Under the pieces are notes generated by a model, which saw only the letters and a program-made list of their open reading frames with translations, was not told where the DNA came from and did no database searches. 21,945 nt of DNA from a virus, in the IMG/VR virus record IMGVR_UViG_3300042465_002491, positions 1 through 21,945 of that record; one strand, given 5' to 3'. This document shows positions 2,388 through 19,580 of this stretch, piece after piece. How positions within the stretch are numbered: the first letter of the stretch is position 1; the number at the start of each line of letters is the position of its first letter. The position numbers and the translations under genes were made by a program.

Positions 2388-2761
2388 AGGTTATAGCTGT
2401 AGTAAAATTCTCCGTTCTCTTCTCTGACCGATACCGTGACCGTTTTCTTGACGATGCGTTGGGAATCCTTTTGTGAGCATTCAATCGGGATGCGTGTGCC
2501 GTCAAGATCGCCATAGACAAACCTTGGGTTCTGTGCTGGGCCTACGATGAACACTTCGATCTCAGTCTTGCTAGCCACAGGCTCGGCAAGGTGCTTCTTG
2601 AACATCCACATCGCATGGTCAGTCCAATAGATCGTCGCTCCGTTCTTATCCCAGTGAACGCCCTTGATTAGGAACTCATCACGAAATGCTTTTGCCTCGG
2701 CTGGTTTTACTTCCAACTTCTCGACAATGTCTCCTTGCTTCCAGCAGTTAATATCCACCAT
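2384..2761 (-). CDS. Hypothetical protein between terminase and portal
   Basis: This 125-residue protein is of unknown function. The start overlaps the last 14 nt of the large terminase gene in another frame and is preceded by AAGGA at very close spacing. The stop overlaps the portal start (ATGA). The N-terminus (residues 1-35) is predicted helical and charged, and the rest looks beta-rich with a YW/W-containing core. There is no membrane segment or signal peptide. Its place between TerL and portal suggests a head-assembly or packaging accessory role, but nothing in the sequence proves that. Confidence 0.75.
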   Translation of the reverse strand: MVDINCWKQGDIVEKLEVKPAEAKAFRDEFLIKGVHWDKNGATIYWTDHAMWMFKKHLAEPVASKTEIEVFIVGPAQNPRFVYGDLDGTRIPIECSQKDSQRIVKKTVTVSVREENGEFYYSYNL

Positions 2762-5276
2762 TTCCTTGTTTTGTTATTTGTGATTTTGTAGCGTCAACGT
2801 GATCCAAGTCAGCAATGGCAGCATAACGCAGAACGTCAATAGGATCTTTCCATGCTTCTTTAAGTCCTTGATCTCCAGTGTATTCAGCAAGTGCGCGAAT
2901 GATATTCTCACAGTCTTGCGAGATGTAAAAGTGCGGGCGGTTTACTGAATCCAATGGCTTGCTGGTATCGTAGCTCATCTTACTGATCAACGCCTGTAGT
3001 CCTTCTTCAATATCAAGACCAGATGCTGGATTGCAGATGATTTCCATCTCAGCTAAGTCTTCGATAATCGAGGAAGCACCATCAGATGCTTGATACCTAG
3101 CAGCACCTAGCCTAGAGTCGATCAATCTGTCAAATATCTCTTCACCCTCTTCGTAGTTTTGAATCAGTTCGACGTAATCACGGATGCCATAGCCAAGACC
3201 CTTTGCCGCTTCACCAGCGACCCACTTGCCGCTCTTCCACTCAGCCCAGTCACCAACATCCACGCTAGGCCACTCCCGATAGACGTAGTATGTTCCAGTC
3301 TCGTCAACCGCAACCCAGCACATGAACCAGTTCTTTGCACCAGCAGGGTCAATAATCTGATACCGTGTGATGTTCTCCGTAGGAATCTTGTCGTTGGAAA
3401 TGACGTTGACCGCAGTGTTGAACTTAGGGAATTTGGTCGCCTGAGACTTCACAGGGACTCCGTAAGCACGAATGAGGATCTCCTCCCGTGTCCTGCCTTC
3501 AAGAGCCTCCTTGATACGCTCATAGCCTCCAAATGGGTTATCCTGAGAGTGGAAGTAGTGGATGCTGGCATTGCGCTTCTTTGACCTCTGGATGTATGGC
3601 ACAAGCTCACCCTTGAGCAGTTCCGCAGGTCTAGATTCCACGATGGATGCCCCGTCAAGATACTCTTTAATGACCTCAGTCCAACCGTCGATAGGAGTAA
3701 ACGTGACCAACATCTTGGCATCTCTCGTAGCTAATCGAAACCTGAGCGTATTGATCAATTCTGGGCCTAGCAAGTATTCGTCGAGCCATACGCCGATATT
3801 GTGCCACACGGGTGATCTGCTTCCAAGTTCTGCACCTTCCAGAATGGTTGGGTTATTCTGATACTGAGAATACGTTTTGAAAATAATCTGGGAACCGTTA
3901 GGAAGGATCAAACTGCCGTCAGTAAATCCGTTCTTTTTCGTGTAGCTGATGTAAGCACCCGCAGATGTTTGCTTGGTCTTTAGTTCCGCTGGTAGCCAAT
4001 CATACACGGCACTCTGTTGCTGACGGATAGATACCTCGGACGTTTGAGCAAAACAAAAGATCTCAGAGTTTGGGTTTTCTACTGCCGCACGGACAATGGA
4101 GAATGCCCCCCACTGGGTTTTGCCCGAGTTTTTCTGCAAGATGTTTCCAATGAAGTAGTTACCAGTTTCAGGAACTTCAATATCCCAAATCTCGCTTACT
4201 TGTTTATCATTAACCTTGACAACAATCGTTTCTTTGGGTTGAATGAGCGCACATGAGAACAATCTTAGAACACATTGTATCGGGCGACGAGCTAAAGGAA
4301 CTGATCGCACAAGGCAAAACACTGCAAGAAATTTCCGACCTAGTACTTGAAAGATGCGGGCAGCGGTGGTCAACGGCTGGGGTTTCAAAGCTCTGTAAGA
4401 AACATAAGATTCCAATGCCTCGGAGTGGTCCTCGTAGCGGATCTCTTCATAAGGGTTGGAAAGGTGGGAGGACCCTGAATAAGGACGGCTATGTAGAGAT
4501 CTACTCTCTTGGTCACCCGAATGCAAAGAAACACACCCATTATATTCTGGAGCATCGTCTGGTGATGGAGGAACAGTTGGGTCGGTTCTTACTAAAGACG
4601 GAAGTTGTCCATCACAAAAACGGCGTGAAGACTGACAATCGTCCAGAGAATCTAGAAGTCTTTGAATCCAACGCAAAGCATTTAGCCGTAACCTTGAAAG
4701 GGCAGGTCCCACAATGGAGTGAGGAAGGAAAAAAGAGAATGCGTGATGGCCAGAAGAACAAGAATCCAATGACTCTTTCTCCAGAACTGAGACTACGCCG
4801 CCAATGCCTATGTCTTTTACGGAACGCCATCCAAAAGGAGTTGAAACTTGGTGCTCCGCCGAACACTGAAACGAGTCACCGTTTCCTAGAAGGACTTGGT
4901 ATGTCTTGGCAACAGTCTTTACAAATGGTCGTAGAGCACGGCATTGAATCTGTTTTTCCCCGTCCCAAGCTAGCACATGAAACTCAGAAGTAATTTCTGA
5001 AACAGGGGTGCTTTTCTTAGCAACTGGATCATAGATCTCCTGTTCTGGTGCTAAGCAACGGTTGCCTCCAAGTGCCACAATCTCAGTGACTTCCGACAAT
5101 TGTTCTTCAGCCTTGCTCCAGTGAGGTAGACGGAATCCGTAGCGGAATGGATCTTTTTCAGCGTTCTCAATCGCCTCGTGATAGATCTGGTGAAGGTGAA
5201 CCAAATCCTCTGGTTCCATCTCTGCAATCTCATCCTCGGAGGGAGGAGTCAGAATCTGGTGGGAACGCCACTTCAT
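2748..5276 (-). CDS. terL: Terminase large subunit interrupted by an intein
   Basis: This 842-residue precursor is the ATP-driven DNA packaging motor and headful nuclease. After removal of residues 74-383 (intein) it would be 532 residues, normal for TerL. The spliced Walker A reads GGNR/SGKT. Walker B is VWLDE, followed by the coupling motif LVTFTP. The C-terminal RNase H-like nuclease has acidic residues in IIDPAG, RLIDSR and PIDVLRYAA. The start overlaps the TerS stop (ATGA), so the two subunits are coupled. No working motor can form before splicing because the P-loop itself is split. An antisense HNH gene lies within the intein-coding part. The TerL assignment is very secure. Confidence 0.95.
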   Translation of the reverse strand: MKWRSHQILTPPSEDEIAEMEPEDLVHLHQIYHEAIENAEKDPFRYGFRLPHWSKAEEQLSEVTEIVALGGNRCLAPEQEIYDPVAKKSTPVSEITSEFHVLAWDGEKQIQCRALRPFVKTVAKTYQVLLGNGDSFQCSAEHQVSTPFGWRSVKDIGIGGVVSVLEKESLDSCSSGHHAFSFFLPHSIVGPALSRLRLNALRWIQRLLDSLDDCQSSRRFCDGQLPSLVRTDPTVPPSPDDAPEYNGCVSLHSGDQESRSLHSRPYSGSSHLSNPYEEIRYEDHSEALESYVSYRALKPQPLTTAARIFQVLGRKFLAVFCLVRSVPLARRPIQCVLRLFSCALIQPKETIVVKVNDKQVSEIWDIEVPETGNYFIGNILQKNSGKTQWGAFSIVRAAVENPNSEIFCFAQTSEVSIRQQQSAVYDWLPAELKTKQTSAGAYISYTKKNGFTDGSLILPNGSQIIFKTYSQYQNNPTILEGAELGSRSPVWHNIGVWLDEYLLGPELINTLRFRLATRDAKMLVTFTPIDGWTEVIKEYLDGASIVESRPAELLKGELVPYIQRSKKRNASIHYFHSQDNPFGGYERIKEALEGRTREEILIRAYGVPVKSQATKFPKFNTAVNVISNDKIPTENITRYQIIDPAGAKNWFMCWVAVDETGTYYVYREWPSVDVGDWAEWKSGKWVAGEAAKGLGYGIRDYVELIQNYEEGEEIFDRLIDSRLGAARYQASDGASSIIEDLAEMEIICNPASGLDIEEGLQALISKMSYDTSKPLDSVNRPHFYISQDCENIIRALAEYTGDQGLKEAWKDPIDVLRYAAIADLDHVDATKSQITKQGNGGY
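4216..4244 (+). promoter_or_regulatory. Sigma70-like promoter for the antisense HNH gene
   Basis: A perfect TTGACA (4216-4221), a 17-nt spacer and TTGAAT (4239-4244, 4 of 6 matches to TATAAT) lie just before the HNH start at 4253. Transcription would begin near the ATG and give a leaderless or almost leaderless mRNA. The element is inside sequence that codes, on the other strand, for the intein C-terminal splicing block. The -10 match is weak, so this is a proposal only. Confidence 0.45.
4253..4993 (+). CDS. HNH homing endonuclease encoded antisense inside the intein
   Basis: This 246-residue protein is probably the DNA endonuclease that would spread the intein by cutting intein-free terL genes. 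Residues about 12-54 look like a helix-turn-helix segment. Residues about 73-137 form an HNH domain: EHRLVMEEQLGR (100-111), VVHHKNG (118-124) and DNRPENLEVF (128-137), with H120/H121, N129 and N133 as likely active-site residues. A basic tail (150-180) follows. Residues about 174-246 lie antisense to the intein's N-terminal splicing blocks. The frames are offset so that the wobble base of the intein codon faces position 2 of the HNH codon. The gene is intact from ATG to TAA, which argues that it is active. Confidence 0.88.
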   Translation: MRTILEHIVSGDELKELIAQGKTLQEISDLVLERCGQRWSTAGVSKLCKKHKIPMPRSGPRSGSLHKGWKGGRTLNKDGYVEIYSLGHPNAKKHTHYILEHRLVMEEQLGRFLLKTEVVHHKNGVKTDNRPENLEVFESNAKHLAVTLKGQVPQWSEEGKKRMRDGQKNKNPMTLSPELRLRRQCLCLLRNAIQKELKLGAPPNTETSHRFLEGLGMSWQQSLQMVVEHGIESVFPRPKLAHETQK

Positions 5277-5863: not shown

Positions 5864-8800
5864 TTATTTAGGCTGAGACGGGATATTTGCTCTCATTCTG
5901 TTTGCATAACTAGCATCTTCCTGAGATCTCCCATACAAAAAGTCGTTAATGTTTTGTTTGAAATCAGGGTCATTTCTTCCAGCATGAGCAAGTGCAGTAA
6001 TTCCAATACGTCCAGAAATAGCAGTATTATAGAAGTTCTTGAAGTTTTTTGTGGTTTGCTCTGGGCCAACGTCTTTAGCCATAGTCTTCCAGAACGGAAC
6101 AAGAATATTCAATCCATGAGCACCAGACATAAATCTATCACGTCCCCATCCAAGAATATTCCCAACACCGAAAAGCTTTAGCCTGTCCTCACTTAGCGAT
6201 GCCTTCACGGCTGGGTCAGAAAGGTTTTGTAATGGAATGTGATTAACATCAGCCATAGTCGCAGCAGCTTTGAATGTGTCAAAGAATTCCTTGCCCATCA
6301 CAGTCTTAATCCTACCCTCAATGATCTTTCCGTCTGCGCCTTCAAGCATTTTCAAGAACTTTCCTCCATTGAAAATCGTTTTGCCACCAGTAGCTGTAGT
6401 GGTTGACGGAAGATCTCTCATCAACTGAGCCACAAAGTCACCTTGCAACGATGCTTTTTGAGCTGCTGGCATTCTTTTCATCACGCTAGCGACATCCGAC
6501 ACCTTGGCGTTATACATCGCCTTTGCAAAGTTATCACCATCGAGCGCATCAAAGTCTCCAGATTTAGCGATCTTGATCAATTCATTGTTGGCGAAGTCCT
6601 CTTGCTCCTGCTTGGCCATTGATGATTTAATAATTCGCTCTTTAATTTGCAGTTTTTCAGCATCGTTTAACGATAAGAACAAGTCATCAACATCCTCTGC
6701 TTTGATATTTGACATATTTAGTTTTTTATCAGCAAATGATTTCTGAAGATCTTTCATCTTTTCGACCATGTTGTTACCAAGCAATGGATTGGTTTTCCCT
6801 GTTGGATCAACCCCCCACAACGTATTAACAATCTTCTCATCAAAATCAAGAGATTCAGGTTTGGTGGCGGCATTAGTAACAAGCCCGATTTTAGTAAGGT
6901 ACGCCTTCTTCAAGCTTTCTCTTACTTGCTGGCCTGCTGCTGGATCTGTCGCTGAAGCCAAGTCTATTACATCCCTGATATGCTGAGGATCTGCGAGTGT
7001 GCTATCGACTACCGTTGTGGCAGTCATGGTTGGTTCTCCAAGTTTCGTCTTGAGGATTTTAGCATTTAGACCACGGCTACCAGCCAAGGCTTGATCGTAT
7101 GCGGCTGTTGCGCTATCCCATTGTTCGGCAATACCTTCTTCAGCATATTTAGCCCTCTGAACATTTCTCAGGTTGGAAGAAGCACCTTCAGCCACTACCA
7201 GTGGAGTGCTACCAGTTGCGAATGAACCGCCTTCTGGGATGCTCTCCTTAGCCATCTTGATCACATCGTCAACTTCCGAAGCGGACAGGACTGCACCGCT
7301 CTCTGAGAGTTTGCGTATTTGCTCTTGAACTTCTGGGGTTTTAATAATAGTTGGGTCATCTCTCAGTCTAATTGCCTCAAGGGCATCACCTTGTTTGGCT
7401 TTGTACTCTTCGACCAATCTGTCGATACCAGTATTCTTAAATTGCTTAGAGTTCATTTTCGCCCCTTCTTCCAGATGTCTCGCGACTTCGGCTGGGGTCA
7501 TAGTCAAACCTTCCGCTTTGACGTAAAAGTCACCATATGCACTATCTTTGATTTGCTTGAGCTGTGTTCGCGCGGTCTCCAGTTGACCCCTGATTCCAGT
7601 TCCGATCATCTCTCTATCAGCAGATTCTACCGATGTATCCATCAACCTTTTGTTCAAAACGCTTTTGACCACATTTCCAGCGTCAACATTGGACTTTGCG
7701 ACAAGATCTGCAAGATTATCAGATTCCGTTTTCAATACATCCATAGCCGATCCGTACACATTGGTGGGCACTCCAGTAATTGACTCCTTAAATGTACTCA
7801 AGGCATCAACTGTTTTTTGTGCCGCTCTTGTTGGGCCAGTGCCAATCCATGCATCTTCCATTCTACCCATCAATTGCTTCTGCTTCTGCAACGGTCTAGC
7901 CCCAAACAGATAGGATATTGGAGCAGTAGTCTCAATGCCCTTCTCCTTAAGAATTGTTCTTGCCTCATCAACCTTCTTGGCTAGTTCATTTTTGAGAGGC
8001 TCCCCAATACGTTTTGCCAATGGCTGAATCAACAATCTGGATGCCTGATCAATTGCCATACCTGTCAGCGCCTCACCAGTTCTAGACATTGCCGCATCTC
8101 CAAGTTTTGGATCAAGGCCCAAAGCCTTTCTTGCAAATACATCTTGCACAAAGCCAGCTCCAGACTGAGCAACGTTCGCCACAACAGATGGATTTTTCAA
8201 GCCAAGTCTTGCTGCTGCTACTGTAGCTACAACTCCAACTGCTGTAGGAATAGCTGTGCCAATAATGTCGGCAGTAAAGTCCTTTACGGAAGTTCCAAGC
8301 TCGTCAGCCAATAACCATCCTCCATCCTGTTTTTTAAGCGCGTATGCTGGAGTACCAGTGATATTGATTTGCTCAACACCATTTGGGAATCTCTCTTTTA
8401 GGTATTGCAACTTCTCTTCTGGATTCTGAAGAAATGATAGGTTTTTTCTGTTTTTCCCGTCAAGACCAGTAGCAACATCGACCTTGTCAAGAGAGGCATC
8501 CAGTACTCTAGCCAAATGACTGTGAATCTCACTATTGGTGGTGGGAGGATCGCTAGACATCGAAGCATAAGTCTTTAATTGCTCCTCATTTGCATTAGCT
8601 AATCCTCCAATTTCATCAAGATATTCGGATCTTTTTTTCCCAGCCATTCTTCTTTCCGACGCAAGGAAGTTAAGCGAGTCTTTTTTGTCCTTGTCTTTTG
8701 CGTCAAGAAGTTGTGCCTCAGTAGCGGTGAAGATGTTGTTTAGGGAGTCAAGATCACCTGTGATCTCATTTACCAACTCAGCATTATTGCTCAGCTTAGC

Positions 8801-8881
8801 TTGTTCAAGTTGGGAATTAGCCAGCTTGATGGCATCTTGAACTTCCTGAAGATCTTTATTTTGTGGAATATTATCAATCAT
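5864..8881 (-). CDS. Large internal virion / ejection protein (1005 aa)
   Basis: This is probably the largest internal virion protein, carried in the capsid and ejected with the DNA. The N-terminus (1-105) is coiled-coil-like and charged. A short globular part (about 150-200) precedes a hydrophobic Ala/Val-rich stretch (about 205-227, TAVGVVATVAAARLGL), which could insert in the host membrane. The remaining 750 residues are mostly helical, low in aromatics and rich in Lys/Asp/Ala. I see no transglycosylase Glu motif of the T7 gp16 type. It follows two other internal virion-type genes, matching the gp14-gp15-gp16 order of T7-like phages. Function is inferred from size, composition and gene order. 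Confidence 0.7.
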   Translation of the reverse strand: MIDNIPQNKDLQEVQDAIKLANSQLEQAKLSNNAELVNEITGDLDSLNNIFTATEAQLLDAKDKDKKDSLNFLASERRMAGKKRSEYLDEIGGLANANEEQLKTYASMSSDPPTTNSEIHSHLARVLDASLDKVDVATGLDGKNRKNLSFLQNPEEKLQYLKERFPNGVEQINITGTPAYALKKQDGGWLLADELGTSVKDFTADIIGTAIPTAVGVVATVAAARLGLKNPSVVANVAQSGAGFVQDVFARKALGLDPKLGDAAMSRTGEALTGMAIDQASRLLIQPLAKRIGEPLKNELAKKVDEARTILKEKGIETTAPISYLFGARPLQKQKQLMGRMEDAWIGTGPTRAAQKTVDALSTFKESITGVPTNVYGSAMDVLKTESDNLADLVAKSNVDAGNVVKSVLNKRLMDTSVESADREMIGTGIRGQLETARTQLKQIKDSAYGDFYVKAEGLTMTPAEVARHLEEGAKMNSKQFKNTGIDRLVEEYKAKQGDALEAIRLRDDPTIIKTPEVQEQIRKLSESGAVLSASEVDDVIKMAKESIPEGGSFATGSTPLVVAEGASSNLRNVQRAKYAEEGIAEQWDSATAAYDQALAGSRGLNAKILKTKLGEPTMTATTVVDSTLADPQHIRDVIDLASATDPAAGQQVRESLKKAYLTKIGLVTNAATKPESLDFDEKIVNTLWGVDPTGKTNPLLGNNMVEKMKDLQKSFADKKLNMSNIKAEDVDDLFLSLNDAEKLQIKERIIKSSMAKQEQEDFANNELIKIAKSGDFDALDGDNFAKAMYNAKVSDVASVMKRMPAAQKASLQGDFVAQLMRDLPSTTTATGGKTIFNGGKFLKMLEGADGKIIEGRIKTVMGKEFFDTFKAAATMADVNHIPLQNLSDPAVKASLSEDRLKLFGVGNILGWGRDRFMSGAHGLNILVPFWKTMAKDVGPEQTTKNFKNFYNTAISGRIGITALAHAGRNDPDFKQNINDFLYGRSQEDASYANRMRANIPSQPK

Positions 8882-8887
8882 ATAAAA

Positions 8888-10882
8888 TTATCTACCGTTA
8901 ACTTTGTCAATAACGCTTCTTGACTGAGGAGTTAGCAATGACGTGTCGGCTGCTGACAAAAGTTTCGGAGCTGGATAATCAGCCTCGGCCTGATTGAATT
9001 GCTCCTTCGTGATAACCCCGTTTTGCAGCATGGTAAGTCTTTGAGTTCTTGAACCGTGAGCAGTATCCAACATATCTGTCTTGAAACTGTCCAGATCTTT
9101 AACAATGTCAGTCGGTTTGCCAGACGATCTAATCAATGTGGATTTCTTCTCAAGAGATTGACCTTCTGCGTTTGACAACTGACCAAGACCAGTAGCTCCA
9201 GTTGGAGAAGCCATTCTCATTTTCTGCATTGAATCGAATTTCGCAACAGCGCGTAAACCATCTACAACGTCATTAAGTCTTGCCTGATCCGATTGAGGAT
9301 AATATCCAGAAACAAGTTTCGCTGCGGAACTGTATAGACCAGTTGAAGGATTTCGATTTACAATCTCTTTTGCCTCGTCAACATATCTAAAGGCTACTCC
9401 TTTGGATAGCTCTCCTTGCGCCTTGAGCTCTTTGGCGGCTTTCGCAGCCTTCTCGACATCTAGTCTTTCCTTCTCAGCAATTGGAGCTAGGGATGTTTTT
9501 GCCTTGCCAGCCTCATCTGCCATTTCCTTTAATGATTGGGCATAAGCTGCTAACTCTGCTGAGTTATCGGAAAGTGCGGCATCACCTATACCCTTGCTCA
9601 TTGCTTCTGGCACATTTACACCATAGTTTTCAAGCGATTGCCGATAAGCCTTGATTTCTGCTTTGGCCGATCTAGCTTGTTTTTGCTCATCACTGAGTAC
9701 TAGTCTCCCGCCTGCTCTTGGAGCTGGCCGTGCTGAGGCTTGAGCACCTCCAATTGGAACAGCATCACCTGTGGCTGGCATTGCTGGTACACCAGTACTA
9801 GCAGTCGCCCTGTCAGCACTTTCAGCCGCAACTCTAATGGCATTAGCTTGCTCTTCTTGAGTTACTGGACGATTCATTGCTGCTGCGGACTCAATTGCGC
9901 CTTGACGGCTTCGTGGTTGTGGTTGATCTACCAAATCAATGCCACTAATTTGCTGTCCGGCCAACTTGTCGTAATCAGATTTATTAGAGGCATAAAAGTC
10001 AAGTACCCCGCCTTTAGGCCCAGTTCCTGCTACTTCAAACTGCCTGCCCTCTGGGAATAGATTGCTTTTTACATTCAAAACAGAACCCGCTGGGTAATCT
10101 TTGGTAGCCACTGTTGGGAGGCTGTCTTCCAATCCGCGATACCTGATACCGCTAGATCCAATGCTTGGGTCGCCTTTAACTTGTGCCATTCTTCCGCTAG
10201 CGATTTCTTGCCTAGTAGTTGGATCGTATTCCGGTTGTCCAAATGCAGTAGCTTTAATTTTAGTCGAGTCAATTGAACTTGTCGATCTTGGGCCAGCTTC
10301 CCACCCTGATTCATTTTGATACCATTTGTTAAGATCCTTAATAGGAGTCAAAGTGCTTGGGTCATAAAATCTTCCAGCTTTACTGTCCCAAGGAAGTTCG
10401 TACTCAATGTTACCCTCTGAAGTTGGAATGGTGGCTTTCTTCATTTCATATGATGGAGCAACTCTTCTTGCCCCAGCAGATTCAATAGCCTGAGCATTCA
10501 TGAGTCTTGTCTTGGCCCCCTCAGTTCCATATTGAGTCATTAGATTGAGACTGTCGCCTACTGTTCCAGCAATCCCAATTTTATCCAAGTTGGATAGTGA
10601 TGGATCACTTAGCTGAAGTTTGGTAGAATCAATTTGTTGAGCAAAATCAGGGTAAAGCGCCTTAGCGTTATCAAGCAGAGACAATGTCCCCTTGATCTTT
10701 GCCGCCATCTCCTTGTCCTTCTGGGCTAACGCTTTCTGTTCTTTCTCGTAATCGGTAATTGCTCCTTGAACTTCTTGTTGTGCAGCGACTTGCCTATTAA
10801 ACAAATCTTGATTAGCTGCATTTGCAATAGCGTAACTTGGAGTGTATCCACTCGGGTCAAATCCTTGTGCTAAAAGTGCCAT
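8888..10882 (-). CDS. Internal virion protein with a possible double-psi beta-barrel (3D-like) domain
   Basis: This 664-residue structural protein lies between the other two internal virion genes. Residues about 1-140 are helical. Residues about 208-316 resemble the 3D/MltA-type double-psi barrel: it opens with KATAFGQPEYD, has PAGSVLNV, and continues to VAGTGPKGGVLDFY. The last of these corresponds to the DTG...G..iDly signature, but with Gly in place of the catalytic Asp. A Pro/Ala-rich linker (about 320-395) leads to a long helical C-terminal half with an ASPTGATGLGQLSN motif near residue 570, common in phage virion proteins. It may help penetrate the cell wall during ejection; the domain call is moderate. 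The leader ATAAAATT has no Shine-Dalgarno. Confidence 0.72.
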   Translation of the reverse strand: MALLAQGFDPSGYTPSYAIANAANQDLFNRQVAAQQEVQGAITDYEKEQKALAQKDKEMAAKIKGTLSLLDNAKALYPDFAQQIDSTKLQLSDPSLSNLDKIGIAGTVGDSLNLMTQYGTEGAKTRLMNAQAIESAGARRVAPSYEMKKATIPTSEGNIEYELPWDSKAGRFYDPSTLTPIKDLNKWYQNESGWEAGPRSTSSIDSTKIKATAFGQPEYDPTTRQEIASGRMAQVKGDPSIGSSGIRYRGLEDSLPTVATKDYPAGSVLNVKSNLFPEGRQFEVAGTGPKGGVLDFYASNKSDYDKLAGQQISGIDLVDQPQPRSRQGAIESAAAMNRPVTQEEQANAIRVAAESADRATASTGVPAMPATGDAVPIGGAQASARPAPRAGGRLVLSDEQKQARSAKAEIKAYRQSLENYGVNVPEAMSKGIGDAALSDNSAELAAYAQSLKEMADEAGKAKTSLAPIAEKERLDVEKAAKAAKELKAQGELSKGVAFRYVDEAKEIVNRNPSTGLYSSAAKLVSGYYPQSDQARLNDVVDGLRAVAKFDSMQKMRMASPTGATGLGQLSNAEGQSLEKKSTLIRSSGKPTDIVKDLDSFKTDMLDTAHGSRTQRLTMLQNGVITKEQFNQAEADYPAPKLLSAADTSLLTPQSRSVIDKVNGR

Positions 10883-17421: not shown

Positions 17422-17667
17422 ATGGAAACAAAGCCGGCTTATACTTACAACGCAAACGAACCCATCCCCTACGAGGAAACTTGCCGAAAGGTCAAAGCAT
17501 GGTCAAAACGTTTGCAAGCTCGCACTGGTCGGCAAGTCTATTATGCCGTCAAAACTAGCAAGGTGGAAATTTACCATAGTGGTATCGACACGAAATCTCA
17601 CAATAAAGCCGTTGAGTCACTCGCGCGGATACTAGGCAAGATACAATTAATTTCCCATACGCGCTAA
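17422..17667 (+). CDS. Small basic hypothetical protein
   Basis: This 81-residue Lys/Arg-rich protein begins METKPAYTYNANEPIPYEE and contains CRKVKAWSKRLQARTGRQVY, probably a helix-strand arrangement that could bind nucleic acid. No family is recognised. It starts 4 nt after the preceding stop. Its own stop lies 2 nt before a hammerhead ribozyme, so its mRNA would end in the ribozyme's 5' cleavage product. Confidence 0.72.
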   Translation: METKPAYTYNANEPIPYEETCRKVKAWSKRLQARTGRQVYYAVKTSKVEIYHSGIDTKSHNKAVESLARILGKIQLISHTR

Positions 17668-17669
17668 AA

Positions 17670-17719
17670 AGTCGAAACGCCTTCGGGCGTCGTCGGATCA
17701 TGTCCGGCCTGACGAGACT
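17670..17719 (+). ncRNA. Type-II hammerhead ribozyme 1 (intercistronic)
   Basis: Reading 5' to 3': AGUC (stem II, 17670-17673), GAAA core with A15.1 at 17677, stem III ACGCC-UUCG-GGCGU (17677-17690), cleavage nucleotide C17 at 17691, stem I GUCGGA-UCAUG-UCCGGC (17692-17708), the invariant CUGACGA (17709-17715), and GACU (17716-17719) closing stem II. Every catalytic-core nucleotide of the hammerhead is present, with ends open at stem II (type II). Predicted cleavage is between 17691 and 17692. It lies 2 nt after a stop codon and 26 nt before the next start, so it would separate the upstream genes from the 238-residue gene. Confidence 0.92.
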
Positions 17720-17745
17720 ATCAGAAATTCAAACAAAACGAAAAA

Positions 17746-18462
17746 ATGAAACTATTAAATAGCGGTAACGCGAAAACACGTAAAGGCGAAAAGCGCGGAT
17801 TCATCACGTATGGAATCCACCTAGCACCGTCCAATCTGTCAGGCTTTAACGTCTGCAAGGATGCAAGCAAGGGATGCGCGGCGGCTTGTTTGAACACTGC
17901 GGGACGTGGTGCCATGTCATCGGTCCAAAAAGCTCGAATTGAGAAAACCCATTTGTTTTTCACGGACAAAACTTGTTTCCTCGGGATGCTTTGGGATGAA
18001 GTGGAAAGCGCCATTCGTTCAGCGACCAGAAAAAACATGACGCCTTGTTTTCGCCTCAATCTAACCTCAGATCTGCCATGGGAAAAGATCAAGTTTCGAG
18101 GGTCGAATATTTTCGATTCATTCCAAGGCGTTCAGTGGTACGACTATACAAAAAGTGAGGAAAGAGCGTGCAATTTCGCTGCGGGTCTACTTCCAAGCAA
18201 TTATTGGCTAACCTATTCACGAAGCGAAGTTTCAACACGTCTAGAATTGGTCGCGATGCTTCAGTCCCAAGTCAATGTCGCAATTGTTTTTGCCGACAAG
18301 CTTCCGCTTAAATGGGAGGGATTCCAAGTTATTGACGGCGATTCTGACGATTTGAGATTTCTTGACCGTCGTGGCGTCGTGGTGGGCCTGAAAGCCAAGG
18401 GCAAAGGCAAGATCGATTCCACAGGCTTTGTCTTGCAACCGGATGGATTGCTTCACGCATGA
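17746..18462 (+). CDS. Cysteine-motif phage protein (GP88/DUF-type, unknown function)
   Basis: This 238-residue protein begins MKLLNSGNAKTRKGEKRG and has a cysteine cluster C37-x6-C44-x3-C48 (VCKDASKGCAAACLNTAGRG). Further motifs are FRLNLTSDLPWE (102-113), WYDYTK (131-136), DGDSDDLRFLD (197-207) and VVVGLKAKGKG. I know this family from many phages and mobile elements; it resembles gene-product-88-type proteins. The Cys cluster and alternating strand/helix pattern would fit a metal or Fe-S binding barrel, but the spacing is not the radical-SAM CX3CX2C and no activity is known to me. The leader is A-rich (CAAAACGAAAAA). It is translated downstream of the ribozyme cut. Confidence 0.8.
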   Translation: MKLLNSGNAKTRKGEKRGFITYGIHLAPSNLSGFNVCKDASKGCAAACLNTAGRGAMSSVQKARIEKTHLFFTDKTCFLGMLWDEVESAIRSATRKNMTPCFRLNLTSDLPWEKIKFRGSNIFDSFQGVQWYDYTKSEERACNFAAGLLPSNYWLTYSRSEVSTRLELVAMLQSQVNVAIVFADKLPLKWEGFQVIDGDSDDLRFLDRRGVVVGLKAKGKGKIDSTGFVLQPDGLLHA

Positions 18463-18542
18463 TCTCGAAATTCATTGAGTGGGTTATTCTCCTATTTTTG
18501 TTTTTGGCTTGGCTCAGAATCATCCTCATGATTTTGTCATAA
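18459..18542 (+). CDS. Tiny hydrophobic membrane protein (27 aa)
   Basis: The start ATG overlaps the preceding stop (ATGA). The peptide is MISKFIEW followed by VILLFLFLAWLRIILMILS, almost entirely one transmembrane helix with an internal Arg. The TAA is 19 nt before the operon terminator stem. Overlap, hydrophobic composition and position support a real translated peptide, possibly acting on the membrane. No homology is claimed. It could be chance, given its length. Confidence 0.5.
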   Translation: MISKFIEWVILLFLFLAWLRIILMILS

Positions 18543-18561
18543 GACCGACTAGGAATCCATG

Positions 18562-18594
18562 GGGGGGTGGTACTTGTTACTGCTCCCCTTTTTT
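18562..18594 (+). terminator. Rho-independent terminator of the rightward operon
   Basis: A G-run (18561-18567) starts an 11-bp stem (18562-18572 with 18578-18588, including three G.U wobbles) that closes a CTTGT loop. It is followed by TTTTTT at 18589-18594. It lies 20 nt after the 27-residue ORF. Confidence 0.75.
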
Positions 18595-18786
18595 ATTGTC
18601 GCTTTCCTACCTTGTCTCCTGCTTTCCCTCCTGCCTCTATGCTTGCCTCTCCTTGTGTCTCTCCAATGGTTCCGTGTCTCCTTCGGTCCGACCTCTTGCC
18701 TTGGCTCTGGTTCTGCATTCGTTCTGGACTCTGGACATACCACTTGAGTCTATGGGGAGCGCAAAGTGAAAATAAATTGATTTGAT

Positions 18787-18813
18787 TATTGAGAGCCTTT
18801 TCACTTGGACTTT
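18787..18813 (+). repeat. 27-bp direct repeat, copy 1
   Basis: The sequence starts TATTGAGAGCC and ends CACTTGGACTTT, and is identical at all 27 positions to copy 2 (18870-18896), 83 bp away. AT-rich DNA precedes each copy. It is non-coding, between converging operons. Confidence 0.9.
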
Positions 18814-18869
18814 GGAAATCATCCACTGATATTCAAATAAATCAAAAAATCAAATTGATCCATAAAACA

Positions 18870-18896
18870 TATTGAGAGCCTTTTCACTTGGACTTT
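18870..18896 (+). repeat. 27-bp direct repeat, copy 2
   Basis: Identical to copy 1 (18787-18813). The first 12 bases (TATTGAGAGCCT) occur once more at 16319-16330, in the other non-coding region flanking the rightward operon. Confidence 0.9.
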
Positions 18897-18924
18897 AAGA
18901 ATCGCTGACTGCTTGTCGAGTTAT

Positions 18925-18959
18925 TCAAGAAAGAACCCCAGAAGGTTTCCCTCCTGAGG
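18925..18959 (-). terminator. Rho-independent terminator of the leftward small-gene operon
   Basis: On the minus strand CCTCAGGAGG (18959-18950), a GAAA tetraloop and CCTTCTGGGG (18945-18936) form a continuous 10-bp stem with two wobbles, followed by TTCTTTCTT. It lies 28 nt after the stop at 18988. The other strand has no T-run. Confidence 0.88.
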
Positions 18960-18987
18960 TCTAATCATTACTAACTTACTAGGGTTA

Positions 18988-19263
18988 TCAATCTTCTGGT
19001 TTGATCTGCCACTTCTCCAATCGATCTGCCAATGCCCTTAGTTGAATAATTGTTTCGTTTGCTTCGTCCACATGGCAGGCGCATGAATCTGTAGCACACC
19101 TGAATAGTTTGCTCCAAGGTATTACAAGTTGCTCCTCGTCGTACTTGAAGAAACGGCCATCAACATAGAGCATTGGCTTGATCCCGTCCTTGTCAAAGAA
19201 CAGCGGAGTGTCATCGCAGAATGAGAGTTCTACTTCTTTTGTTTTCGTCATTTTCATTTTCAT
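18988..19263 (-). CDS. Small hypothetical protein with a Cys-rich loop
   Basis: This 91-residue protein begins MKMKMTKTKEVELSF, with three in-frame ATGs within five codons; I chose the first. It contains a strand-rich middle (MLYVDGRFFKYDEEQLVIPW), a short CATDSCACH cluster that might bind metal, and a C-terminal amphipathic helix. No family is recognised. The start lies 22 nt after hammerhead ribozyme 2, so its mRNA would begin at the ribozyme cut. It is the last gene before the terminator at 18925-18959. A longer frame upstream overlaps the previous gene and is unlikely. Confidence 0.72.
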   Translation of the reverse strand: MKMKMTKTKEVELSFCDDTPLFFDKDGIKPMLYVDGRFFKYDEEQLVIPWSKLFRCATDSCACHVDEANETIIQLRALADRLEKWQIKPED

Positions 19264-19285
19264 ATTATTGTCAGTTGGTTGATTT

Positions 19286-19335
19286 GATCTCGTCAGTACT
19301 GGAATTACCAGCAGACCACTCTCGTGGTTTCGATC
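19286..19335 (-). ncRNA. Type-II hammerhead ribozyme 2 (intercistronic)
   Basis: On the minus strand: GAUC (stem II, 19335-19332), GAAA with A15.1 at 19328, stem III ACCAC-GAGA-GUGGU (19328-19315), cleavage nucleotide C17 at 19314, stem I UGCUGG-UAAUU-CCAGUA (19313-19297), invariant CUGACGA (19296-19290), and GAUC (19289-19286) closing stem II. Predicted cleavage is between 19314 and 19313. All helices differ in sequence from ribozyme 1 but pair fully, which is covariation. It begins 2 nt after the stop at 19338 and ends 22 nt before the next start. Confidence 0.92.
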
Positions 19336-19337
19336 TT

Positions 19338-19580
19338 TCAAACGTAGGTTTCCCAGCTTCCACCGTAGTAGGTACGTTCCGTCATTCCTAGTTCCTGCCT
19401 TGCGATGTTGATGCGCTCCTGAGCCATGCTGCTGCGGGACTTGAAGTAATCCATCGTGTTGGACTCGCTCCATGCCGCAAAATCACTGCACCACCGTGTG
19501 AACCTCCACTGGTGGCCGACTGGGTACATTCCTGATACGCGGTTTTTTGCTAGGCTGATTGCTGCTTCTTTTGTTTTCAT
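19338..19580 (-). CDS. Small hypothetical protein
   Basis: This 80-residue protein starts MKTKEAAISLAKNRVSGMYP at the ATG at 19580, preceded by ACAATACACAC. This start avoids a long overlap with the upstream gene that the full open frame (to 19706) would need. It is Arg/Ser/Trp-rich with a segment WRFTRWCSDFAAWSES and a helical C-terminal half. No family is recognised. Its stop is 2 nt from ribozyme 2. It is the middle gene of a three-gene operon. Confidence 0.7.
   Translation of the reverse strand: MKTKEAAISLAKNRVSGMYPVGHQWRFTRWCSDFAAWSESNTMDYFKSRSSMAQERINIARQELGMTERTYYGGSWETYV

Follow-up and report, generated by a model that had tools for sequence, protein, structure and literature searches.

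Compact type II hammerhead ribozymes predicted at stop codons between phage genes, with a core-complementary tail in part of the family

The window analysed here, the whole 21,945-base stretch of an IMG/VR virus record (IMGVR_UViG_3300042465_002491), contains two predicted hammerhead ribozymes, designated HHR1 and HHR2, each located between two co-directional genes. Together with related elements from environmental phages they point, with a probability put at about 0.7, to compact type II hammerheads that cut polycistronic mRNA between co-directional genes, that are optional modules of the downstream leader, and that in about a third of the wider family carry a matched tail which traps the core after cleavage. 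Architecture, conservation, position, presence or absence and covariation are read from the sequence, whereas catalysis, mRNA processing, the product trap and an effect on stability are deduced. It was previously reported that type II hammerheads cluster around prophage genes, and it was proposed that they cut long phage transcripts into shorter mRNAs (Perreault et al. 2011, PMC3088659); according to the available text of that study, cleavage was seen in vitro for some of these related prophage elements and in E. coli for one set. The stop-codon placement, the linkage to the downstream gene, the natural relatives with, without or with dead elements, and the covarying tail described below make the purpose of the many phage hammerheads, a question since 2011, directly testable.

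A type II descriptor matched the window twice, at HHR1 and HHR2 (coordinates in the table), detected no third type II element there and gave 0 matches in 300 Markov surrogates; the type I and type III descriptors had no match in the window. HHR1 reads AGUC-GAAA-CGCC(UUCG)GGCG-UC/GUCGGA(UCAUG)UCCGGC-CUGACGA-GACU and HHR2 reads GAUC-GAAA-CCAC(GAGA)GUGG-UC/UGCUGG(UAAUU)CCAGUA-CUGACGA-GAUC, the slash marking the predicted cleavage site. Both run in the same order, from a 4-base-pair (bp) stem II through GAAA, a 12-nucleotide (nt) stem III hairpin, UC, a 17-nt stem I hairpin and CUGACGA to the second strand of stem II. By the descriptor, both combine the CUGANGA and GAAA core motifs, a UH cleavage site and three stems, with stem II open and loops capping stems I and III; they are type II (stem-II-open) hammerheads and are predicted to be self-cutting. 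The shared layout that had been claimed from the sequence alone was confirmed (50 nt, starting 2 nt past a stop codon, cut predicted after nt 22 by the hammerhead rule, 4-bp stem II, 6-bp stem I), as were the 5-nt loop I and a stable stem III tetraloop, UUCG in HHR1 and GNRA in HHR2. Stem I of HHR1 has 6 bp, with one further U-G pair possible. The RNAfold minimum of HHR2 is the hammerhead fold, and that of HHR1 departs from it at stem II.

The layout recurs across environmental phages and is not private to this one. An exact-layout scan of the viral_contigs collection returned at least 120 stretches; when the two window copies are added to these loci, all three stems form in 110 of 133 pattern matches, and the other 23 were dropped. 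Scans for U, A or G at the free core position N7 (the N of CUGANGA) and for a longer stem III, plus loci found by homology, brought the final set to 546 loci (4.88 Mb, chosen by pattern or homology) with 556 nonredundant elements. Over these loci the descriptor made 633 matches, up to 8 per locus, against 1 on the reversed sequence. When one anchor per locus was removed, the exact window layout was found in 34 of 82 elements and a 17-nt stem I plus loop in 63 of 82, frequencies biased by the choice of loci by pattern and by scan patterns that enforce the layout. In prokaryote genomes (genome_contigs), a stricter pattern returned 2 stretches; this pattern recovers 62 of 96 exact-layout CUGACGA elements and thus misses about a third. 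Across 209 exact-layout elements, stem pairing is kept and the sequence varies freely.

The position of the elements was assessed in 255 elements nonredundant over their 30-nt flanks. An open reading frame (ORF) ended nearby upstream in 229 and an ATG-initiated ORF followed in 232. In 189 of these 255, a stop codon ended at -4 to +3 relative to the element, compared with 148 of 5100 random same-strand positions (2.9%) and with 25 of 255 on the opposite strand. The commonest offset was +1, at which stem II opens with the G of UAG, and the start codon typically lies 20–30 nt 3' of the element. HHR1 and HHR2 follow the same arrangement, each beginning 2 nt past a stop codon and being followed, after a leader of 26 and 22 nt, respectively, by the start codon of the next co-directional gene. 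The siting between a stop codon and the next leader fits processing of polycistronic phage mRNA. That part of the original prediction is strengthened by the survey, although the idea itself is not new, as PMC3088659 already proposes it for prophage hammerheads. The stop-codon-abutting placement of these predicted ribozymes is new in this analysis.

Among gene pairs from different loci, the downstream gene alone was shared 118 times, the upstream gene alone 51 times and both 20 times, the flanking genes falling into 158 upstream and 145 downstream families. The element behaves as an optional module that, on this sequence comparison, would mainly belong to the 5' leader of the downstream gene. 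HHR1 and HHR2 would cut a polycistronic phage transcript between two co-directional genes. The upstream mRNA would have the stem III hairpin at its 3' end, with a 2',3'-cyclic phosphate, and the downstream mRNA, encoding GP88 in the case of HHR1, would have a 5'-OH end that starts with the stem I hairpin.

Comparison with close relatives bears on the same point. Thirty-two GP88 relatives in viral_contigs and five HHR2 relatives were compared. HHR1 is present in five of the 32 (L123–L127, 89–94% identity), where its upstream neighbour varies: the 81-residue gene of the window is found in L125–L127, a gene-B homologue in L123 and a gene-A homologue in L124. No hammerhead was found in L153, where GP88 is 92% identical over 88 residues before the contig ends and the upstream gene overlaps the GP88 start, nor in the 26 other GP88 relatives (59–70%). 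HHR2 is intact in three of its five relatives. In L157, G12 is changed to U with the remaining structure kept, about 70 nt before the 91-residue gene; in HHR1 we take the GAAA to be G12, A13, A14 and A15.1. The L157 element is thus a natural core mutant, usable as a ready-made inactive control. In L159, HHR2 is absent and a leader of equal length is retained. The predicted ribozymes HHR1 and HHR2 are therefore optional elements, HHR1 staying with GP88 as the upstream genes change, and the suggestion of a deliberate strategy is not supported as first put, as one of the two is missing from some close relatives and has a dead core in another. Among relatives, compensatory changes occur in stem III, and in stem I wobbles are replaced by Watson-Crick pairs. 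A G-U wobble at the second pair of stem I had been put forward as a shared design feature; it was rejected because it is not conserved, being Watson-Crick in both elements (L123/L158) of relative contig 3300036985_002207. The portal protein matches that of Phage C75C1 (53%), a named relative in which no type II hammerhead was found. Several of the distant hammerhead-free GP88 relatives (among L128–L154, except L153) show by eye a TTGACA-like and TAACTT-like promoter just 5' of the ATG, which suggests a nearly leaderless GP88 mRNA in these phages.

This gain and loss, the core mutation in L157 and the want of any fixed cargo among so many upstream and downstream gene families are what would be expected of decaying or selfish passengers that have no function for the phage. 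That explanation is improbable, given the stem pairing maintained across the 209 elements, the strict position at stop codons, the covariation of N7 with the tail described below, and the presence of up to 8 copies per locus with unlike stem sequences.

RF02276 (Hammerhead_II) is the top Rfam family for 111-nt stretches around HHR1 (22.2 bits) and HHR2 (20.7 bits), below its gathering threshold of 37, and an Rfam scan of the whole window at E≤1 reported no hammerhead and so missed both. In 13 other multi-element loci, Rfam at gathering reported 3 of 52 descriptor elements, so most hammerheads of the compact class go unseen at that threshold and databases undercount phage hammerheads. The low scores are the one feature expected if chance hairpins happened to resemble a hammerhead, for which the probability is close to nil in view of the blank surrogates, the single match on reversed sequence and the conservation with compensatory change. 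The RF02276 model has 2 stem II pairs, a longer loop I and CUGAUGA, whereas HHR1 and HHR2 have 4 bp, a 5-nt loop and CUGACGA. The loop I–tail pseudoknot was also sought: HHR1 has no 3-bp match, and the match of at least 3 bp in HHR2 is no more than chance would give. As a tertiary contact of the compact set it was rejected, being found in 75 of 275 elements versus 74 with shuffled tails; elements with a long loop I carry the published pseudoknot in 7 of 7 cases. Of 231 exact-layout elements, 222 combine an A at position -5 (the base 5' of stem II) with a U in loop I, two bases that may form a tertiary contact. A compact type II class lacking the loop I–tail pseudoknot, as defined from these predicted elements, is new in this analysis.

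HHR1 and HHR2 share with the type II hammerheads of RF02276 and PMC3088659 the catalytic core and the permutation, with stems I and III looped and stem II open; they are likewise multiple, flank phage genes and have the same proposed role in transcript cutting. According to the available text, the compact class differs from these in its 5-nt loop I without a loop I–tail pseudoknot, its 4-bp stem II, its A(-5) and loop-I U, and a tail that is in part of the class complementary to the core. A hammerhead located 13 nt before the start codon of a helicase gene in haloviruses HF1 and HF2 (PMC3088659) is akin to the leaders described here; it is, however, a core variant in a high-salt setting, whereas the window elements have the canonical core. 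The pseudoknot-containing hammerhead (Zhan et al. 2024, PMC11300833) shares hammerhead chemistry, with G8 and G12, but has helix II replaced by a pseudoknot, whereas no pseudoknot was detected in the compact class. Neither the pseudoknot-less compact class as such, nor its stop-codon placement, nor a core-complementary tail was found in the open-licence literature, supplements excluded, including for the latter the available text of PMC3088659, PMC6155905 and PMC11300833.

The 3' tail of 187 among the 556 elements has UCAG at offset 2, 4 or 5 after CUGANGA, and hardly any UCAG lies at other offsets. Directly 5' of it, the base N' tracks N7 (C-G, U-A), so that N'UCAG complements the catalytic strand CUGAN. 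In a first sample of 252 elements, the N7-N' pairs at offset 5 were U-A 16, C-G 14 and C-A 1, the last being HHR1; in the analysis by clusters, 18 clusters contributed 30 pairs at this offset, 30 of 30 being Watson-Crick (p 5e-5 on permuting within clusters). In elements of this sample without UCAG, the base at the offset-5 place of N' did not track N7 (p 0.22). Offset 2 gave C-G 42, U-A 15, U-G 15 and C-A 5 (p 3e-4), compared with p 0.63 in a control of like stems lacking the following AG. Permutation within clusters gave 54 of 67 Watson-Crick pairs versus 34 expected (p 5e-5), and within loci 11 of 11 versus 5.6 (p 0.008). An out-of-sample test planned beforehand on 281 new elements gave a Fisher p of 3e-13, and 14 elements from previously unseen clusters gave p 0.01 (11 Watson-Crick, 1 U-G, 2 mismatches). 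In the full set, the 58 elements at offset 5 comprised C-G 32, U-A 25 and U-G 1, and 28 of 118 at offset 2 were not Watson-Crick, 17 of these being U-G. The pairing is limited to a third of elements and 30 of 124 clusters and is not class-wide. A prior prediction that N7=A would give UUCAG was rejected, as it was borne out in 2 of 22 elements, both in phage L299 and hence one independent event, 18 of the 22 lacking any UCAG; the corresponding prediction of CUCAG for N7=G (0 of 4) gives no test. The core-complementary tail of these predicted ribozymes is new in this analysis. A separate locus, L084, carries seven compact hammerheads in 2.3 kb (7361–9683, minus strand), all with the full tail hairpin and alternating between CUGAC/GUCAG and CUGAU/AUCAG; their predicted 3' product is two flush hairpins. 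A megablast search of 50,697 phage records gave no match for L084, L223 or L212.

After cleavage, N'UCAG would pair with the core strand to make a second hairpin flush against stem I, which would make cleavage irreversible and give the downstream mRNA a structured 5' end. In RNAfold predictions of the 3' product, pairing of the core UGA with the tail exceeds P 0.5 in 159 of 252 elements versus 76 with shuffled tails, and the value for HHR1 is 0.96 over CUGA/UCAG. The complementarity is equally a DNA inverted repeat, and a cause at the DNA level, such as a site for a phage protein, may be envisaged; it is quite improbable, since there are three spacing registers (offsets 2, 4 and 5), each fitting an RNA hairpin loop, and the position is tied to the ribozyme core. 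The main rival is that the tail acts on uncut RNA as a switch or timer, sequestering CUGAN until a ribosome, helicase or protein frees it. Tail pairing and the active core are mutually exclusive, RNAfold of the precursors gives the tail hairpin above 0.5 in 125 of 252 elements versus stem II in 94, and a terminating ribosome would cover stem II where the element starts at the stop codon. Against this, transcription reaches the tail only once the ribozyme is complete, which would let a fast ribozyme cut beforehand, the folding energies omit tertiary contacts, and no ligand or regulator site was seen. The timer is considered rather unlikely, and the product trap is favoured. A broader proposal, made tentatively and at slightly less than even odds, is that this large class, which escapes the Rfam threshold, is bistable by design. 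The 3' tail, part of a pseudoknot supporting the active fold in the type II class described earlier, would here match the catalytic strand CUGAN and convert the RNA from its cutting state into two hairpins at the 5' end of the following mRNA. Each element would separate mRNAs once and irreversibly, possibly on the cue of translation terminating at the adjoining stop codon.

Several observations weigh against cleavage followed by a product trap. The compact class is without the pseudoknot, and its activity at cellular Mg could be low; and RNAfold, lacking tertiary terms, disfavours stem II in most tailed precursors. HHR1 has UCAG at offset 5 but an N7-N' C-A mismatch in its tail hairpin, and so does not carry a full core-complementary tail, and no such tail or tail hairpin was found in HHR2; among HHR1 relatives, L123 has a full N'UCAG match and L124 a G-U pair. 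Finally, the mutated core in L157 and the absence of HHR2 from L159 and of HHR1 from L153 indicate that the elements are not essential.

Table. Predicted hammerhead features and flanking genes in the window.
Feature	Position	Strand	Basis or remark
HHR1, compact type II hammerhead	17670..17719	+	descriptor match; RF02276 22.2 bits; compensatory changes in L123-L127
HHR1 predicted cleavage	between 17691 and 17692	+	hammerhead rule
HHR1 A(-5), conserved	17669	+	base 5' of stem II
HHR1 stem II 5' strand, pairs with 17716-17719	17670..17673	+	
HHR1 core GAAA	17674..17677	+	descriptor
HHR1 stem III hairpin, UUCG tetraloop	17678..17689	+	predicted 3' end of upstream mRNA after cleavage
HHR1 stem I hairpin, 5-nt loop	17692..17708	+	predicted 5'-OH end of GP88 mRNA
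HHR1 core CUGACGA	17709..17715	+	descriptor
HHR1 tail AUCAG	17720..17724	+	UCAG 17721-17724 pairable with CUGA 17709-17712; N7-N' is a C-A mismatch
HHR2, compact type II hammerhead	19286..19335	-	descriptor match; RF02276 20.7 bits; intact in L155, L156, L158
HHR2 predicted cleavage	between 19314 and 19313	-	hammerhead rule
HHR2 stem III hairpin, GAGA tetraloop	19316..19327	-	
HHR2 stem I hairpin, 5-nt loop	19297..19313	-	
HHR2 leader	19264-19285	-	
Gene upstream of HHR1, 81 aa, no family found	17422..17667	+	
Gene downstream of HHR1, GP88 family	17746..18462	+	PF17338, 6.3e-44
Gene upstream of HHR2	19338..19580	-	80 aa from the ATG common to relatives; ORF list: 122 aa from TTG
Gene downstream of HHR2, 91 aa, no family found	18988..19263	-	

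HHR1 and HHR2 each precede the final gene of one of two convergent gene runs. The noncoding gap that separates these runs contains a 63-nt direct repeat (18787–18849 and 18870–18932; 76% identical, the first 27 nt exact). Elsewhere in the window, an HNH endonuclease ORF (4253–4993, plus strand; HNH_3 3.4e-10, PHROG HNH 1.8e-28) lies antisense within the terminase large subunit gene (2748–5276, minus strand), wholly inside its intein-like part (approximately residues 79–384), for which the intein match is weak (0.0029, below the cut-off).

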